Shown in pieces: positions 1 through 13,046 of a stretch of 64,000 bases of DNA. The notes beneath the pieces are model-generated. The model saw only the letters and a list, made by a program, of their open reading frames with translations. It was not told the DNA's origin and searched no databases. Within the stretch, counting starts at the first letter, position 1; every line of letters starts with the position of its first letter. The translations under genes were made by a program, and so were the position numbers. The stretch is taken from the NCBI GenBank assembly GCA_020851565.1, contig JADZCN010000140.1, positions 1 through 64,000 of the forward strand. The letters run 5' to 3'. The stretch comes from Acidobacteriota bacterium (lineage in GTDB: Bacteria > Acidobacteriota > Vicinamibacteria > Vicinamibacterales > UBA2999).

Positions 1-2193
1 CAGGGCGCCGAGATGCCGAACCCGGGCGTGCAGAGCCAGTTCATCGCCAAGTCGGGCGGCAACCAGTTCAGCGGCGAGGGCTACTACGACTGGTACAACA
101 ACAGCCTGCAGGGCGCGAACATCCCGGACGACGTGCTGGCGCGCGGCATCCGCGAGCACAGCAACGAGATCGACACCTACTGGGATCGCGCCATCAACGT
201 CGGCGGCCCGATCGTGCGGGACAAGATCTGGTACTTCGGCACCTACCGCGAGCAGTTCAACGCGGTGGCGCAGCCGCAGTTCCGCTTCGACCAGACGTTC
301 GACACGAAGCTGTGGAACCCGGTGGTGAAAGGCACCTACCAGGTGAACCAGAAGAACAAGATCATCGGCTACTACCAGTACGGCCAGAAGATCCAGGCGA
401 CGCGCCTGCCGTATGCATCGTACTTCTACGACGACATCGGCTCGACCACCAGGCAGGATTCCGGCAGCTGGGTGTACAAGGCCGAGTGGAACGGGACGCT
501 GACCGACAAGCTGTATCTCGAGGCGCGTTTCGGGGACTTCGGCTACTACTTCCCGATGCTGTCGAACTGCGGCGAGGTGTCGACGTGCGACCCGAACTAC
601 TTCTGGCGCGACACCGGCCTGGGCGAGCTGACGGGCGCGCAGCAGCGCTGGCAGCTGGACCGGGACCGCAAGCAGTACACGGCGGCGGCGACGTACTTCA
701 TCGACACGGCGAAGGGCAGCCACACGGTGAAGTTCGGCGGCGAGCTGCTGAAGGAACAGGGCTGGGAAGGCTACCAGCAGCAGTTCGGCGGCAACATCGA
801 TCACCAGTACGCCAACGGTCGGTCGAGCACGGTGGTGTTCACGCTGCCGACGGCGACCGACAGCCCCGACTTCGGGACGATGAGCGCGAACAACAACGGC
901 GTGCTGACGTCGATGTCGGCGCTGGACGTGTTCGCGGCGTTCATCAACGACACGTGGGCCGTGGGCCGGCTGACGATCAACGCGGGCGTCCGCTACGACC
1001 GGTATCACGGGTTCCTGCCGGAGCAGCAGCAGCTGGCGGCCACGGTGGGCCCGACGTCGGTGGAGGCGAAGACGTTCCCGAAGAACGACCTGTACACGTG
1101 GAACCAGGTCGCGCCGCGCATCGGCGCGACGTACGACCTGTCGGGGGATGGCCGGACGGTGATCAAGGCGAACTACGGGCTGTTCTGGCACAACCCGGGC
1201 GTCGGCGTGGGCGGCAACGCCAACCCGAACACGACGGCGAAGTCCGAGACTTACGCCTGGAACGACATCAACGGTGACCGGCGGTGGCAGCCGGGCGAGC
1301 AGGGGAACCGGACGGCCTCGCAGCTCGAGGGGACCATCGGCCTCGACCCGAACATCGAGTCGCCGATCACGCACGAGGTGAGCGGCTGGCTCGAGCGGCA
1401 GCTCTCGGACACGATGGGGATGCGGGCGGGCTTCGTCTACAAGACGCAGGACAACCTGATCCAGACCTACGTGCCGGGCCGCAGCGTGCTGAACGGCGCC
1501 TACAGCGTGCCGTTCAACTTCACCGATATCGGCGTGGACGGCCGGGCTAACACCGGAGACGAGAGCACCGTCACGCTCTACGGCATGCCGGCCAGCCAGG
1601 CCGCGAACTTCCCGCTGGACTCGGTGGTGATGAACGTGCCGCGCGCCGAGGATTTCAAGACGTTCGAGATCTCGGCGAACCGCCGCTACAGCAACAAGTG
1701 GTCGGGCCAGCTGGCCTTCAGCCACACGTGGCTGAACGACTACCCGGCGGGCAACTTCCCGACCAACCCGAACCAGCCCGGGCGCCTGAAGAGGACGACG
1801 TGGCAGTTCAAGGCGACGGGCAGCTACGACCTGCCGTACGGCGTCCGCATCTCGCCGGTGCTGCGCCACCAGTCGGGTGAGAACTACGCCCGCGAGATCA
1901 GCGTGCCGGCGAGCGCCGCCACGGCGTTCGGCCTCGTGCTGCCGGCCTCGACCTACTACGCCGACAACCCGTCGGACAACCGCCAGGACAACATCTGGGT
2001 GTTCGACGTGCGCCTGGAGAAGACGGTGGAGATTGCGGCGCGCGCGCGCGTCCGCGGCTTCCTCGACTTCTTCAACATCACCAACAGCAGCGCTGCGGAG
2101 ACCATCACGCGGACGACGGGCACGAACTACCAGCGGCCGGCCGCCATCCTGGCCCCGCGAACCGCGCGCATCGGCGTCCGGTTCCTGTGGTAG
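1..2193 (+). CDS. TonB-dependent receptor (Oar-like), 3' part
   Basis: Outer-membrane beta-barrel receptor whose 5' end lies before the window; the frame is open from base 1 and 730 residues are visible. The visible part begins inside the plug/barrel transition, with a phrase of the type QSQFIAKSGGNQFSGEGYYD that is common in acidobacterial Oar-like receptors, and continues as alternating aromatic barrel strands (for example VRDKIWYFGTYREQ and VGRLTINAGVRYDRY). It ends in RIGVRFLW with a terminal aromatic residue, as expected for an outer-membrane insertion signal. The missing N-terminus would normally carry a signal peptide, a carboxypeptidase-regulatory-like domain and the plug. The substrate cannot be predicted. 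It is followed by a GGGGTTCT repeat spacer. Confidence 0.9.
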   Translation, partial: QGAEMPNPGVQSQFIAKSGGNQFSGEGYYDWYNNSLQGANIPDDVLARGIREHSNEIDTYWDRAINVGGPIVRDKIWYFGTYREQFNAVAQPQFRFDQTFDTKLWNPVVKGTYQVNQKNKIIGYYQYGQKIQATRLPYASYFYDDIGSTTRQDSGSWVYKAEWNGTLTDKLYLEARFGDFGYYFPMLSNCGEVSTCDPNYFWRDTGLGELTGAQQRWQLDRDRKQYTAAATYFIDTAKGSHTVKFGGELLKEQGWEGYQQQFGGNIDHQYANGRSSTVVFTLPTATDSPDFGTMSANNNGVLTSMSALDVFAAFINDTWAVGRLTINAGVRYDRYHGFLPEQQQLAATVGPTSVEAKTFPKNDLYTWNQVAPRIGATYDLSGDGRTVIKANYGLFWHNPGVGVGGNANPNTTAKSETYAWNDINGDRRWQPGEQGNRTASQLEGTIGLDPNIESPITHEVSGWLERQLSDTMGMRAGFVYKTQDNLIQTYVPGRSVLNGAYSVPFNFTDIGVDGRANTGDESTVTLYGMPASQAANFPLDSVVMNVPRAEDFKTFEISANRRYSNKWSGQLAFSHTWLNDYPAGNFPTNPNQPGRLKRTTWQFKATGSYDLPYGVRISPVLRHQSGENYAREISVPASAATAFGLVLPASTYYADNPSDNRQDNIWVFDVRLEKTVEIAARARVRGFLDFFNITNSSAAETITRTTGTNYQRPAAILAPRTARIGVRFLW

Positions 2194-2205
2194 GACACGG
2201 CTGAT

Positions 2206-2320
2206 ACGGGTTCTGGGGTTCTGGGGTTCTGGGGTTCTGGGGTTCGGGGGTTCGGGGGTTCTGAGGTTCGAACCTCTGGACCGAACCCCGGAACTTCAGA
2301 ACCTCAGAACCTCAGAACCT
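2206..2320. repeat. GGGGTTCT tandem array with inverted tail
   Basis: About six copies of the octamer GGGGTTCT and variants lie at 2208-2260, followed by the reverse-complementary GAACCTC/CAGAACCT words at 2266-2320. The two halves can pair. The G-tracts with 4-base loops also fit a potential G-quadruplex. It lies between a receptor stop and the next same-strand gene. Confidence 0.75.
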
Positions 2321-2480
2321 GAGATTCGGCTCCTGTGGGGGAGTCTGTGGCGAGAGCGGGCTGCGCCGGCCCCTCTCGCCGTTTTTTTTCGGCGTCGGCT
2401 CGCCGTGTCGTCGTGGAGGCGGAGCATGCGCCCACGGCTGGTCCTCGGCGGGAGATGGCGCGCTCCGGTAAGCTACCTCC

Positions 2481-3272
2481 ATGACCGACCGTGCCGTCAC
2501 CTACGGCAGCTACCTGGCCATCGACGAGCTGCTCTCCCTCCAGCGGCCGCGATCCGACGGGCCCGAGCACGACGAGCTGCTCTTCATCGTCATTCACCAG
2601 GTCTACGAGCTGTGGTTCAAGGAGATCCTCCACGAGCTGGACCAGGTGATGCGATGGCTCGACAAGGGCGAGGCGCACCGGGCCCACCACACCATGAAGC
2701 GCATCCTTACCATCCTCAAGGTGCTGGTGGCGCAACTCGACATCCTCGAGACGATGACCCCGCTCGAGTTCCAGTCGTTCCGCACGCGGCTCGAGGCGGC
2801 CAGCGGGTTCCAGTCGGATCAGTTCCGGCAGCTGGAGTTCGTCCTTGGCCACAAGACCCGTGGCGCGCTGGCCCGGTTCCCCGAGAACTCCCGGGCCAGG
2901 CGGGCGCTCGAGGAGAGGTTTGGTGCCCGGACGTTGTGGGATGCCTTCCTGCACTTCCTCTCCCGAGAGGGCTACGGGGTGCCCGCGGCCCTGCTCGCGC
3001 GCGATGTCACGAGGCCACCGGAGCCGTCCGAGGCACTGCAGGATGCGCTCATCGAGGTGTACCGTACCGACCCGAAGAACGCCGAGCTGTGCGAGCGCCT
3101 CGTGGACCTGGACGAGGGCCTGCAGGAGTGGCGCTATCGCCACGTGAAGATGGTGGAGCGGACCATCGGCACCCGGCCCGGCACCGGCGGCTCGAGCGGC
3201 GCCGCGTACCTGGCGACCACGCTGATGCAGCCGCTGTTCCCGGACTTGTGGGCGATTCGCGCCAGGCTGTGA
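2481..3272 (+). CDS. kynA: Tryptophan 2,3-dioxygenase
   Basis: Heme enzyme that opens the indole ring of L-tryptophan to N-formylkynurenine, the first step of the kynurenine pathway; cytosolic. The 263-residue product carries the family hallmarks: HDELLFIVIHQVYELWFK at residues 30-47, where the His-Gln and Trp-Phe line the active site, and the C-terminal H221 region (proximal heme ligand candidate) followed by GTGGSSG at 234-240 and the YLATTLMQPLFPDLW tail. The length fits bacterial TDOs. The ATG at 2481 is the only start that precedes the conserved YGSYLAIDELL block. The kynureninase-like gene follows 70 bp downstream on the same strand, so the two probably act together. No formamidase gene is visible between them. 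Confidence 0.95.
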   Translation: MTDRAVTYGSYLAIDELLSLQRPRSDGPEHDELLFIVIHQVYELWFKEILHELDQVMRWLDKGEAHRAHHTMKRILTILKVLVAQLDILETMTPLEFQSFRTRLEAASGFQSDQFRQLEFVLGHKTRGALARFPENSRARRALEERFGARTLWDAFLHFLSREGYGVPAALLARDVTRPPEPSEALQDALIEVYRTDPKNAELCERLVDLDEGLQEWRYRHVKMVERTIGTRPGTGGSSGAAYLATTLMQPLFPDLWAIRARL

Positions 3273-3282
3273 GGGATCACTT

Positions 3283-3315
3283 CAAGACCCCAAGACCCCA
3301 AGACCTCAGGACCCC
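3283..3315. repeat. Short CCCCAAGA array
   Basis: Three to four units of CAAGACCC/CCAAGACC type in the 70-bp gap between the dioxygenase and the kynureninase-like gene. Same word family as the longer array at 25016-25216. Confidence 0.6.
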
Positions 3316-3342
3316 TCGTGCCTTCGTGGTTTCGTTGGTGCC

Positions 3343-4512
3343 ATGATCAATGCATCTGACCTCGCGCGTCATTACTCCCGCTTCCGCGTTTCAGAGCGCC
3401 TGCTGCTCACGGGCCACTCGCACCAGGCGGGGCCCGACGCGGGATTCGAGGCGCAGCAGCAGGCCTGGCTCGATGCGGCCGAGCACCTCGACCACAAATG
3501 GGGCCTCGCCGAGGAGCAGGCCGAGCGCGTGCGGGACGGATGGCGGCGCCTGCTCGGCGAGCCGCGCGCCGAGATCCCCCTCGGCCAGAACACGCACGAG
3601 CTCGTCTGCCGGTTCCTCTCCGCCCTCCCGCTGGATCGCCGCCCGCGGCTGGTGACCACCGACGGCGAGTTCCACACCATCCGCCGGCAGCTGGACCGGC
3701 TGAGCGAGGCGGGGCTGGACGTCCGCAAGGTGCCCAGCCGTCCCGTCGAGACGCTCGTCGAACGCATGGCGGCGGATGTGAACGACCGCACCGCCGCCGT
3801 GCTCGTCTCGTCCGTGCTGTTCGAGACCGCGGAAATCGTCCCAGGCCTGGGCGAGCTCGCAGCAGCCTGCGTCTCTCGCGGAGCGGAGCTCCTGGTCGAT
3901 GCCTATCACCATCTGAACGTCGTCCCGTTCCAGGTGGAGGCGTTGGGGCTCCAGCACGCCTTTGTCGTCGGCGGCGGCTACAAGTACTGCCAGTTGGGGG
4001 AGGGCAACTGCTTCCTGCGGGTGCCGCCTGATTGCCAGATGCGTCCCGTGTTCACGGGCTGGTTTGCCGAGTTTGCCGCGCTCGAGGAAACTGCGCGCGA
4101 TGGCGCGGTCGCGTACGGCCGTGGCGCGGCGCGCTTCGCCGGCGCCACCTACGATCCGTCGTCGCACTACCGCGCGGCGTCCGTCTTCGCGTTCGCGCAG
4201 AAGCAGGGCTTGACCGCGGATGCGCTCCGCGCGCTCAGCAGGGCACAGACGACGATGCTGGCGGATGCGGTGGAGGCGTTGGACATCGCCCCGGCCCGGG
4301 TACGCGTGGAGCCGATTGCAGCGGAGCGCCGCGCGGGCTTCGTGGCGTTGCGGGCCGCGGACGCGCCGAAGCTCGCGCGCACCCTGGCGGCGCGCGGTGT
4401 GTGGTGCGACGCGCGCGGCGAGCGCCTGCGTCTCGGCCCCGCGCCCTACGTGACAAACGAACAGTTGTTACGGTCGGTCGAGATCCTCGGCGACGTCCTC
4501 CGCGAGGCGTGA
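3343..4512 (+). CDS. kynU: Kynureninase-like PLP enzyme
   Basis: Fold-type I PLP enzyme (389 aa, class V aminotransferase/kynureninase superfamily), expected to cleave kynurenine to anthranilate and alanine. Visible signs: the N-terminal TGHSHQAGPD motif (23-32), D186 in VDAYHH as the residue facing the pyridine nitrogen, K214 in GGGYKYCQLGEGNCFLR as the Schiff-base lysine, and RLGPAPYVT near the C-terminus as the substrate-carboxylate arginine region. Position directly after tryptophan dioxygenase supports the kynureninase assignment. It is divergent enough from textbook KynU that another kynureninase-clade activity cannot be excluded. Confidence 0.82.
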   Translation: MINASDLARHYSRFRVSERLLLTGHSHQAGPDAGFEAQQQAWLDAAEHLDHKWGLAEEQAERVRDGWRRLLGEPRAEIPLGQNTHELVCRFLSALPLDRRPRLVTTDGEFHTIRRQLDRLSEAGLDVRKVPSRPVETLVERMAADVNDRTAAVLVSSVLFETAEIVPGLGELAAACVSRGAELLVDAYHHLNVVPFQVEALGLQHAFVVGGGYKYCQLGEGNCFLRVPPDCQMRPVFTGWFAEFAALEETARDGAVAYGRGAARFAGATYDPSSHYRAASVFAFAQKQGLTADALRALSRAQTTMLADAVEALDIAPARVRVEPIAAERRAGFVALRAADAPKLARTLAARGVWCDARGERLRLGPAPYVTNEQLLRSVEILGDVLREA

Positions 4513-4638
4513 GCACGATCCAGCCCGTCGAAATCGACGATTTCAACTGATTGGATTTGGCCCCGGACCCCGCCACGGGCGCGCAAGGTGATCGCAGTTT
4601 TCCCTCCGGATTCTCGCGATGGCACGGCCCGTCGTTTT

Positions 4639-4654
4639 CGGCACATCGCTTGCA
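4639..4654 (+). promoter_or_regulatory. Sigma-54 (-24/-12) promoter
   Basis: CGGCACATCGCTTGCA matches the RpoN consensus TGGCACG-N4-TTGCW at all core positions but the first T and the G after CAC. GG lies at 4640-4641 and GC at 4652-4653, with the mandatory 12-base offset. Transcription would begin near 4665. No protein-coding start lies close downstream; instead a structured region ending in an intrinsic terminator follows. Confidence 0.6.
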
Positions 4655-4664
4655 GTTCCGAGAG

Positions 4665-4768
4665 CGGCGATTGAAACGGCTTGTGCACCCCCACAGGAGC
4701 AAGCCAGGTTTGAGCCAGGCTGACTAGGCCACTGGCTCGAGGGGCCCATGTTGATGGGCCCCTTTTTT
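4665..4768 (+). ncRNA. Candidate sigma-54-driven small RNA, three hairpins
   Basis: About 104 nt between the predicted RpoN start and a strong intrinsic terminator. Three consecutive stem-loops can be drawn. The first is GGCTTG (4678-4683) with CAAGCC (4700-4705). The second is GAGCCAG (4712-4718) with CTGGCTC (4732-4738), with an inner GGC/GCC pairing. The third is the terminator stem at 4741-4762. No open frame with a ribosome-binding site is seen here. It may be a free-standing sRNA or the attenuated leader of the cytochrome gene that starts 17 bp after the T-tract. Its regulator and targets are unknown. Confidence 0.5.
4741..4768 (+). terminator. Intrinsic terminator
   Basis: Perfect 9-bp stem GGGGCCCAT / ATGGGCCCC with loop GTTG, followed by six T. 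It ends the candidate small RNA and insulates, or attenuates into, the cytochrome gene. Confidence 0.9.
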
Positions 4769-4785
4769 GTTATCTTCAGGGCGTT

Positions 4786-7017
4786 ATGAGGTTCGGCACC
4801 GGCCTGATGGTAACGAGCGTCCTGCTCTGGAGCGTTCTCGTCGCCACGACCGGCAGCACGTCCCAGTCCGTGCCGCCGGACGCGCCCGCTTCGCCGACGG
4901 CGTCCCTGCAGGCTGCATCTCCTGGCGCCCACGCCGAGGCGCCTCGCTCGCCATCCGATTACCTCGGCTCCGAGTCATGCCGCCGCTGCCACGAAAAGGA
5001 GACCGAGCAGTGGGAGCGGTCCCTGCACCTGAAGATGACCGCGCCGGTGGCCCGGGCGACGGTCGTCGGCAACTTCTCTGAGGGAACCCGGTTGTCCGCT
5101 CACGGTCGCTCGTACGAGTTCGGCCGCAAGGACGGCACGCCCTACGTGTCCATCGCGTTCGGCGACCGGCTCCCCGAGACCTTCACGGTGGACTACACGC
5201 TGGGGGCCAAGCGCTACCAGGGCTACCTCTCGACGCTCCCGGACGGGCGGATCTACGTGCTGCCCGTGTTCTGGCACGTCGAGAGCCGGCGCTGGCTGGA
5301 CTGGAAGGAGATCACGCCCATCCCCGACGGCGCCCACGACCTGCGGCAGATCTGGAACGCGAACTGCTTCAACTGCCACGGCACCAACATCGCGCAGGAC
5401 TACGACGTCAGGGCGAAGCGCTACGACTCCACGTGGACGGAGATGGGCATCGGGTGCGAGGCGTGCCACGGGCCCGGGCGCGAGCACGTGGCGCAGATGG
5501 ATCAGTGGGAGAACGACCCGTCACTCAAGCCCGCCTACGACAACAGCGCGAAGAACCGCCAGCTGACCGACATCCTGAAGACGCTGTCGACCCGGTCTGC
5601 GGAGCCGCGACGCACGTTCGATACCTGCGCCTACTGTCATGGCAACAAGACGAACCTCTTCGTCGACTTCCGCGCCGGGGATCGCTACGAGGATTTCGCG
5701 CTGCCGTTCCTCCTGAGCGGGGAGATTCCTGCCAACGATCCGCAGGGCGAGTTCTGGCCCGACGGGCGGCCCAACCGCTTCAACCGCCCGCAGGCGCTCA
5801 CGCTCAGCGGCTGCTTCCAGGCGGGTGCCATCACCTGTACGAACTGCCACGTGGCGCACAGCTCGAGCAACGAGCACTCGCTGAAGGTGGACATCTACCA
5901 GGGGCGCAAGGGTGACGAGCTGTGCACGCAGTGTCACACGGCGCCAAAGGCGGAGTCGGGCGTGAAGCCGTCGTTCACCGGGGCGGGATTGCAGGCGCAC
6001 ACGTTCCACGAGCCGGAGAGCGCGGGCAGCCGGTGCATCAACTGCCATATGAGCGACGTGAACTGGCGGCTGCTCACCCGCCGCCGCGACCACACCTTCA
6101 AGGCGCCGGTTCCGGAGATGACGGCGCGTCACGGCGTGCCGAACGCGTGCACGACGTGCCACGACGACAAGACCCCGGAGTGGGCTGCCGCCCGGATGGA
6201 CGCGTGGTGGGGCGACGGCGATCGGCGGCGCCAGGACCTGATGACGGCTGACGTCATGTATCGCGCCGGCTCCGGTGACGTCTCGGTGATGCCGGACCTG
6301 GCGCGCATGGCCGTGGACCGCTCGCAGGGCTGGCTCCTGCGGGCGAGCGCCGCGGACTTCGTCGCGCAGATGCTGCTCGGCGGCGCGGCCTCGACCTCAA
6401 CCGCCCAGAGCCAGACGTCCTTTGCCTCGGGCTCGGCCTCCGGCGACCGTCGCCCGGCCAGCGCCCCTGTCGAGGCACCGCAGGCGGTTCTCAACGCGCT
6501 GATGGGCGCGGCTTCGGACCCCGAGCCCGCGGTGCGAGCGTCGGCCGTGAAGGCCCTGGCCGCGTCGGGCCAGCTGGAGCGCGTGGCGCCGGCGCTCACG
6601 GCCCGGCTGGTGGACACGGCCCGGGTCGTGCGCGTGCGGGCGGCCGAGGCGCTGCTGTCGCTGGGCGTGGCGGAGCTTCCGGGCCCGGCCGGACAGGCCC
6701 TGGCCAGGGCCCAGGACGAGTACGCGCAGAGCCTGAGGACCTTCCCGGACATGGCGTCGAACCACGCGGCACTCGGCTGGCTCGAGGCCTCCAGGGGCCG
6801 CACCATGGAGGCCCAGCAGGCGCTGGACGCGGCCCTGCAGGTGGACCCGCGCTTCGCACGGGCGTACGTGGTGAAGGGCATCCTCGCGGCGCGGGAGAGC
6901 CGGTACCGGGAGGCCATCGACCTGTGGAAGAGGGCGCAGGACATCACGCCAGACGACCCGCGCCTGGCCGACCTCATTGCCGAGGCCCAGAAACGGCAAA
7001 AGGCCGGAGCGCGTTAG
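4786..7017 (+). CDS. Octaheme c-type cytochrome with HEAT/TPR tail
   Basis: Exported 743-aa multiheme cytochrome. A signal peptide (about residues 1-26) precedes eight CxxCH heme sites at C65, C194, C224, C281, C351, C380, C417 and C455, in the spacing style of cytochrome c554/doubled-CXXCH proteins. After residue 500 the protein changes to HEAT-like helices (about 545-620) and then TPRs (about 650-735), so an electron-transfer head is fused to a protein-interaction tail. No quinol oxidase or reductase partner lies next to it, so the electron acceptor is unknown. The stop codon lies inside a terminator hairpin. The sigma-54 small RNA unit immediately upstream may influence its expression. Confidence 0.88.
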   Translation: MRFGTGLMVTSVLLWSVLVATTGSTSQSVPPDAPASPTASLQAASPGAHAEAPRSPSDYLGSESCRRCHEKETEQWERSLHLKMTAPVARATVVGNFSEGTRLSAHGRSYEFGRKDGTPYVSIAFGDRLPETFTVDYTLGAKRYQGYLSTLPDGRIYVLPVFWHVESRRWLDWKEITPIPDGAHDLRQIWNANCFNCHGTNIAQDYDVRAKRYDSTWTEMGIGCEACHGPGREHVAQMDQWENDPSLKPAYDNSAKNRQLTDILKTLSTRSAEPRRTFDTCAYCHGNKTNLFVDFRAGDRYEDFALPFLLSGEIPANDPQGEFWPDGRPNRFNRPQALTLSGCFQAGAITCTNCHVAHSSSNEHSLKVDIYQGRKGDELCTQCHTAPKAESGVKPSFTGAGLQAHTFHEPESAGSRCINCHMSDVNWRLLTRRRDHTFKAPVPEMTARHGVPNACTTCHDDKTPEWAAARMDAWWGDGDRRRQDLMTADVMYRAGSGDVSVMPDLARMAVDRSQGWLLRASAADFVAQMLLGGAASTSTAQSQTSFASGSASGDRRPASAPVEAPQAVLNALMGAASDPEPAVRASAVKALAASGQLERVAPALTARLVDTARVVRVRAAEALLSLGVAELPGPAGQALARAQDEYAQSLRTFPDMASNHAALGWLEASRGRTMEAQQALDAALQVDPRFARAYVVKGILAARESRYREAIDLWKRAQDITPDDPRLADLIAEAQKRQKAGAR

Positions 7018-12971: not shown

Positions 12972-13046
12972 GCCGGTATCGTCTAGGGGTCAGGACGGGT
13001 GGTTCTCAGCCATCAAACCGGGGTTCGAATCCCCGTACCGGTACCA
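12972..13046 (+). tRNA. tRNA-Glu (anticodon CTC)
   Basis: Full cloverleaf. The acceptor GCCGGTA (12972-12978) pairs with TACCGGT (one G-T). The D arm contains GTC..GAC. The anticodon stem GGTGG/CCATC closes the loop TTCTCAG with anticodon CTC at 13005-13007. The T arm is CGGGG-TTCGAAT-CCCCG, the discriminator is A, and CCA is encoded at 13044-13046. Confidence 0.95.

Follow-up and report, generated by a model that had tools for sequence, protein, structure and literature searches.

A predicted small RNA with a sigma-54-type promoter and complementary hairpins behind outer-membrane receptor genes in uncultured Acidobacteria

A conserved small RNA (sRNA) unit with its own sigma-54-type promoter is carried by a group of uncultured Acidobacteria, and the loop of its first hairpin is complementary to hairpins located in the 3' untranslated regions (3' UTRs) of several paralogous receptor genes of the TonB-dependent/OMP type. 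Its anatomy, the conservation of promoter, upstream dyad, loops and stems, and the conserved complementarity to the receptor 3' UTRs are directly visible in the genomes compared, while transcription, dependence on sigma-54, in vivo pairing of the two RNAs and the direction in which it would act (receptor repression or capture of the sRNA) are predicted from these features. Since a hairpin of the sRNA mirrors the hairpin in the tail of the receptor mRNA, the RNA probably controls outer-membrane receptors. The explanation that we regard as likely is a sigma-54-activated, trans-acting sRNA, which would pair with the 3'-UTR hairpins and thereby either alter the stability of the receptor mRNAs or be soaked up by them. 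The promoter and the hairpins had been noticed in a preliminary description of the locus, to which the upstream dyad and the complementary 3'-UTR hairpin are now added. The features concerned are located as follows in the window, that is the whole 64-kb stretch of DNA that was analysed.

13 to 2193, forward strand: TonB-dependent/OMP beta-barrel receptor gene (PF25183), the predicted regulatory target
2328 to 2345, forward strand: partner hairpin, with the sequence GGCTCC-TGTGGG-GGAGTC, located within the TonB/OMP 3' UTR
2349 to 2389, forward strand: intrinsic terminator belonging to the TonB/OMP gene and immediately behind the partner hairpin, with its stem at 2349-2380 and its T run at 2382-2389
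4518 to 4556, no strand assigned: 39-bp dyad ATCCA-N7-GAA-N9-TTC-N7-TGGAT, centred 103 bp before the GG of the promoter
4640 to 4654, forward strand: sigma-54 (-24/-12) promoter GGCAC-ATCGC-TTGCA; all 20 members share the form GGYAY-N5-TTGC
4665 to 4768, forward strand: predicted small RNA of about 104 nt (from fold, blastn, alignments and covariance model), its 5' end at about 4665 being deduced from the promoter position
4678 to 4705, forward strand: hairpin 1, loop motif CCCCCACAGGAG at 4688-4699
4712 to 4738, forward strand: hairpin 2, loop motif TGACTAGGCC at 4721-4730 (loop also given as UGACUAGGCC)
4741 to 4768, forward strand: hairpin 3, an intrinsic terminator with six T
4786 to 7017, forward strand: octahaem cytochrome c gene, downstream of the RNA and an inconstant neighbour

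Anatomy and conservation of the RNA unit

The observation of a promoter and a three-hairpin RNA unit at 4639-4768 is confirmed as real. As claimed initially, a near-consensus -24/-12 element is present, in which GGCAC (4640-4644) and TTGCA (4650-4654) are separated by five bases and the GG (4640-4641) and GC (4652-4653) are offset by 12. It is followed by two stem-loops and a terminator, the stem of which comprises nine perfect pairs between GGGGCCCAT (4741-4749) and ATGGGCCCC (4754-4762), succeeded by six T (4763-4768). The reported lack of a coding frame holds as well, as no forward-strand open reading frame of at least 80 amino acids runs across 4551-4766. The stretch 4660-4775 folds at -52.2 kcal/mol, compared with -39.2 (sd 3.5) for shuffled sequences (z -3.7; 0 of 200 shuffles equal). 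Within the window, the sigma-54 box pattern matches once against 0.17 matches expected, and because 16 of 100 shuffled windows also contain at least one match, the promoter match by itself is not decisive; a terminator scan of the window found one, with a shuffle average of 1.8. It is the conservation in relatives, and not these window-only statistics, which places the unit beyond chance.

A blastn search with 4615-4790 yielded matches in 14 of 99 genomes, including the own genome, and in all of them but one (G010) the alignment extends over the promoter, the loop of hairpin 1, hairpin 2 and the terminator; the box is intact in all 13 of these full loci, locus L014 of G010 being set apart. The covariance model R1 recognised 14 of the 43 family genomes and, among 396 genomes of the phylum, seven, none of which lies outside the family of the window genome. 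In five genomes missed by R1 (G002, G025, G010, G009 and G011), a sigma-54 box at the syntenic place precedes parts arranged in the order seen in the window, an arrangement also retained by the further diverged members G022, which was added via pattern searches, and G027, which was found with model R2. Altogether, sRNA homologues are present in 20 of the 43 family genomes and in 8 of 24 genera, namely in all five genomes of genus g1, all nine of g2 and one each of g6, g7, g8, g19, g22 and g24. The -24/-12 box occurs with correct spacing, ten bases between GG and GC, in every one of the 20, the box of L002 having been missed by the regular expression and read by eye. When a pattern devoid of the GG was run against 193 genomes of the class, ten matches were obtained, all within the family and all with the GG correctly placed (control: 5). 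A pattern match in G070 looked by eye like coding sequence and was dropped. Moreover, 21 bases of hairpin 2 gave nine matches in a collection of 84,980 species genomes, all on MAG contigs that apparently had already been found here.

Some members feature extra or longer hairpins between promoter and terminator with unchanged loop sequences; such inserts are situated between hairpins 1 and 2 in L007, L010 and L012 and inside hairpin 1 in L009 and L013. Altered hairpin 1 loops (CCCACGGG or CCCACCGG) are found in G009, G011 and G022. A 385-nt variant of the RNA was observed in G010 (L050, 7071-7455), consisting of the box, a C-rich motif, about 250 extra bases, hairpin 2 and the terminator. This variant (L014) is counted as a member and was excluded from the alignments, since its box lies about 300 nt away from hairpin 2. 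Two other functions were considered for the hairpins and rejected. A short peptide, TTG AGC CAG GCT GAC TAG, judged by eye within hairpin 2, was abandoned because the inserts in L007, L010 and L012 separate it from the upstream AGGAG and because the frame is lost in G009; a CsrA-type site in the loop of hairpin 1 was discarded because the GGA is not universal, being absent from G010, G011 and G022.

In alignment A1, which comprises 13 sequences, every cell of hairpin 2 is paired, and one pair is changed on both sides, from C-G to U-A, in three sequences; the pairing of 67.5% in the terminator helix is only a lower bound, since this helix is out of register in A1. When the arms were swapped among members, one per genus and with G002 omitted for both hairpins, the true pairing was equalled in 1631 of 40320 arrangements for hairpin 1 (4%) and in 855 of 40320 for hairpin 2 (2%), which lends the two stems modest to moderate backing. 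Neither the window RNA nor any of six loci from relatives reached the gathering score of an Rfam 15 family; among the sub-threshold matches, BjrC68 attained 19.4 bits against a cut-off of 39, and others remained likewise far below. The sole match of the window at the gathering score is a tRNA gene at 12972-13043. A AGGCTGACTAGGCC hairpin sharing 14 bases with sRNA hairpin 2 was noted in three genomes of genus g21 (L110, L111 and L113), where it stands opposite the hairpin-terminator after a gene ending in ...NELVRAKLS; the rest of the sRNA is absent there, and as far as seen it is not an sRNA of the same kind.

Predicted sigma-54 control

The preliminary description had proposed a free-standing sRNA gene controlled by RpoN. 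As far as sequence goes, this proposal is supported and withstands both refuting conditions named with it: relatives conserve the promoter as well as the stems, the unit has its own promoter and its own terminator, is devoid of a coding frame and is kept where the downstream gene is missing, and the promoter persists irrespective of the upstream gene, which is KynU in g1 and TDO (tryptophan 2,3-dioxygenase) or remnants thereof in g2. The Pfam sigma-54 DNA-binding (RpoN) domain was detected in 40 of the 43 family genomes; the RpoN of the window genome is represented by a fragment of only 24 positions at a contig edge.

The dyad at 4518-4556 is likely the binding site of a sigma-54 activator. 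All 14 genomes searched, which were chosen among the sRNA carriers as having upstream sequence, contain its family consensus, ATCCA-N7-GRA-N9-TTY-N7-TGGAT, with at most one mismatch at exactly one place each, and this place is always before the sRNA (control: 0). The dyad is also carried by G027, and the locus of G001 lacks upstream sequence for the search. In G002, G009, G011 and G022 the strict pattern gave no match; variant inverted repeats are discernible there by eye. The centre of the dyad is positioned 69, 80, 90-92, 103 or 116 bp upstream of the GG, varying across genera. Since these steps of 11-13 bp amount to about one helix turn, insertions may keep the helix face, hinting at a corresponding requirement for activation; the whole span shows no exact fit to 10.5 bp per turn.

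Complementary hairpins behind receptor genes

The 10-mer TCCTGTGGGG, complementary to the hairpin 1 loop, was matched 107 times in 10 genomes, compared with 47 matches for the reversed control. In eight of these genomes one match lies on the same strand as the sRNA and upstream of it, after a TonB/OMP gene and before TDO where the latter is present, and it takes the form of a (G/A)CTCC-TGTGGG-GGAG hairpin immediately ahead of an intrinsic terminator. Using a 17-mer of this partner, with up to one mismatch allowed, 23 perfect copies were found in 17 of the 193 class genomes, all within the family; 12 of the 17 genomes carry the sRNA and five do not. Each of the 23 copies is followed by a run of 5-8 T beginning 35-44 nt downstream, and in 20 cases a TonB/OMP gene of the window kind ends 8-465 nt before the copy (tblastn); of the other three, two lie at contig edges and one, in G025, is without such a gene within 1.5 kb. 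The own genome holds two copies, one at 2328-2345 of the window and one on contig 83 after a receptor paralogue of 95% identity. Two perfect copies at paralogues are present in six of the 12 genomes holding both RNA and partner (G000, G005, G032, G035, G039 and G041), and G004 also has two, one of them imperfect with two changes. One-mismatch matches in G523, G086 and G052 were taken as chance, and those in G019 and G007, for which a T run was not seen in the stretch examined, looked by eye like coding sequence and were dropped. A subset of the 107 TCCTGTGGGG matches viewed by eye revealed no other hairpin before a terminator beyond the copies listed, and in 18 stretches around other matches no run of five T followed. 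Between the stop codon of the window receptor and the partner hairpin (2194-2327), short direct repeats of the type GAACCTCAGAACCTC were observed, with similar ones in G004.

In the window, positions 4688-4700 of the sRNA pair with 2329-2341 of the partner over 13 bp. All 19 sRNA-partner combinations from the 12 genomes with both display unbroken runs of 10-15 nt with at most one G-U pair and duplex dG values of -27.5 to -41.6, which were equalled by 0-9 of 500 shuffles each; because the partners were picked by motif, these shuffles gauge the strength of pairing and not its discovery. In addition, the partner hairpin is the best non-self match of the sRNA on both strands of the window, and CTCCTGTGGGGG occurs in the window only at the partner and opposite the sRNA, compared with 0 occurrences in 100 shuffles. 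At one position, a C of the sRNA corresponds to a G of the partner in g1 and a U of the sRNA to an A or G of the partner in g2; this co-variation between sRNA and target is consistent and thin, a single change, as the partner stem is nearly invariant.

Across the 43 family genomes, both elements were recognised in 12, the sRNA only in eight, the partner only in five and neither in 18, so that 12 of the 20 sRNA-bearing genomes show the complementarity. The genomes with one element only, five on the partner side and eight on the sRNA side, weigh against the pairing proposed here. Among the eight for which no partner was found, the sequences of G001 and G003 stop at contig edges and the assembly of G040 is incomplete; none of the 10-mer matches inspected in G003 is of the partner type. 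In G010, the region behind the TonB gene yielded no complement (equalled by 793 of 1000 shuffles), and the result for G002 is suggestive only (60 of 1000). The remaining three, G009, G011 and G022, are those with altered hairpin 1 loops.

According to the mechanism that we propose, RNA polymerase containing sigma-54 would transcribe the sRNA gene under an activator bound at the dyad, and the transcript would stop at its own terminator and act in trans. The hairpin 1 loop CCCCCACAGGAG would first touch the UGUGGG loop of the TonB/OMP 3'-UTR hairpin, and this contact may grow into the 10-15 bp duplex, opening the hairpin beside the receptor terminator; most likely, the stability of the receptor mRNA would be lowered. 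A further-reaching version is put forward tentatively, as a proposition with somewhat less than even prospects: one sigma-54-type sRNA with a unique activator site could be antisense to barcode hairpins before the terminators of chosen TonB/OMP genes, forming a two-part RNA switch by which one signal would set a whole receptor set via the 3' ends. If a 3'-UTR tag is matched by one sRNA, a search for the tag would find the receptor regulon, which constitutes a testable hypothesis.

Alternative readings and known systems

The roles of the two RNAs could be reversed, with the receptor 3' UTR as the regulator, such that a freed piece of hairpin and terminator sponges the sRNA, whose real targets would lie elsewhere. 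The genomes with a partner only speak for this arrangement: they are all five genomes of g21, in which no sRNA was recognised, the order TonB - partner - TDO being found in three, with TDO farther off in G024 and not found in G034, and no sigma-54 box following shortly after TDO. Hence, the hairpin has a reason apart from the sRNA, or an unseen sRNA is present. The tagging of two paralogues in half of the genomes with both elements would fit a decoy, and GlnZ provides a known example of a small RNA freed from a 3' UTR (PMC9731577). On the other hand, the best match of the sRNA loop in the window is the 3' UTR itself, and no other target was found in a genome-wide search for one exact 10-mer; we consider this reversal unlikely.

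Another reading assumes that the sRNA works mainly via other targets or a protein, either by action of the C-rich loop of hairpin 1 at ribosome-binding sites or through the hairpin 2 loop UGACUAGGCC, and that the 3'-UTR match is a by-product of an inverted duplication of the hairpin. The hairpin 2 motif TGACTAGG, conserved to about the same degree as the loop of hairpin 1, has no partner known to us, and hairpin 1 closely resembles the partner hairpin in reverse complement, which would be expected of an inverted copy. This reading is opposed by the fact that four genera retain the complement next to the sRNA and that it is also kept at far-apart paralogous loci, and by the start regions of neighbouring genes, which showed no consistent pairing with the loop (the DUF420 row in L046 is an artefact, as the compared stretch contained the sRNA itself). 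Taken jointly, these routes appear quite improbable to us, and pairing of a trans-acting sRNA with the receptor 3' UTRs is preferred.

The preliminary description had also offered the RNA as an attenuated leader of the cytochrome gene. The translation of that gene contains eight CXXCH motifs, counted by eye, and thus the label octahaem is correct. The general gene order is TonB/OMP - TDO - (KynU) - sRNA - (cytochrome) - convergent TPR gene - beta-lactamase/NamZ gene. The cytochrome gene adjoins 9 of the 13 full blastn loci; it is absent in G001, G039 and G040 and reduced to a relic of about 54 residues in G042, and in these four loci sRNA and box are intact and the convergent gene is next. Termination of a sigma-54 transcript at 4768 with signal-dependent read-through is in line with the terminator ending 17 bp before the ATG in the window, with the failure to find a sigma-70-like promoter in 2150-4800 and with the nine adjoining loci, but as a conserved role it is largely refuted and highly improbable, because the RNA persists where the cytochrome gene is missing or reduced to a relic, a convergent gene is the next one recognised in G009 and G011, and an alternative anti-terminator fold was not seen. 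TDO was observed to be internally deleted or fragmentary in L042, L044 and L041 (G035, G040 and G041), and at such loci of TDO decay, in several g2 genomes, sRNA, dyad and promoter are intact. The contig of G040 begins close by.

Many receptor paralogues are present in acidobacterial genomes, and their regulation is, to our knowledge, hardly known. Most studied sRNAs target start-codon regions; judged against this general background, aiming at a hairpin beside the terminator in the 3' UTRs of several paralogues is unusual. The RNA would constitute a new acidobacterial family with predicted sigma-54 and dyad control and predicted targets, all readable from the genome. Searches of open-licence literature on acidobacterial sRNAs with sigma-54/RpoN, or on sRNAs and TonB receptor 3' UTRs, revealed no such RNA.

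The Acido-1 and Acido-Lenti-1 motifs (Rfam RF01686 and RF01687) are likewise structured acidobacterial RNAs according to the description in PMC2864571, whereas the window RNA has no counterpart in Rfam at the gathering score. GlnZ, an enterobacterial sRNA processed from the 3' UTR of the glnA mRNA in the account of PMC9731577, resembles the receptor side of the system in that an mRNA 3' UTR ends in a piece able to act as RNA; in contrast to GlnZ, the window unit has its own promoter and is predicted to pair with such a 3' UTR. The sponge RNA CrfA and the sRNAs SisA-D of Caulobacter, portrayed in PMC12559287 as separate non-coding RNAs recovered with Hfq, share an RNA-RNA sponge logic tied to nutrient supply, whereas in the window system one partner would be the 3' UTR of a receptor. 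ChvR of Caulobacter crescentus, which is controlled by the ChvI-ChvG two-component system and targets a TonB-dependent receptor mRNA by direct base-pairing (as described in PMC6237742), likewise combines a small RNA, a dedicated activator and a TonB-dependent receptor mRNA as target; compared by description, the window sRNA differs from it by featuring a sigma-54-type promoter in place of ChvI-ChvG control and by matching the 3'-UTR hairpins of several receptor paralogues.
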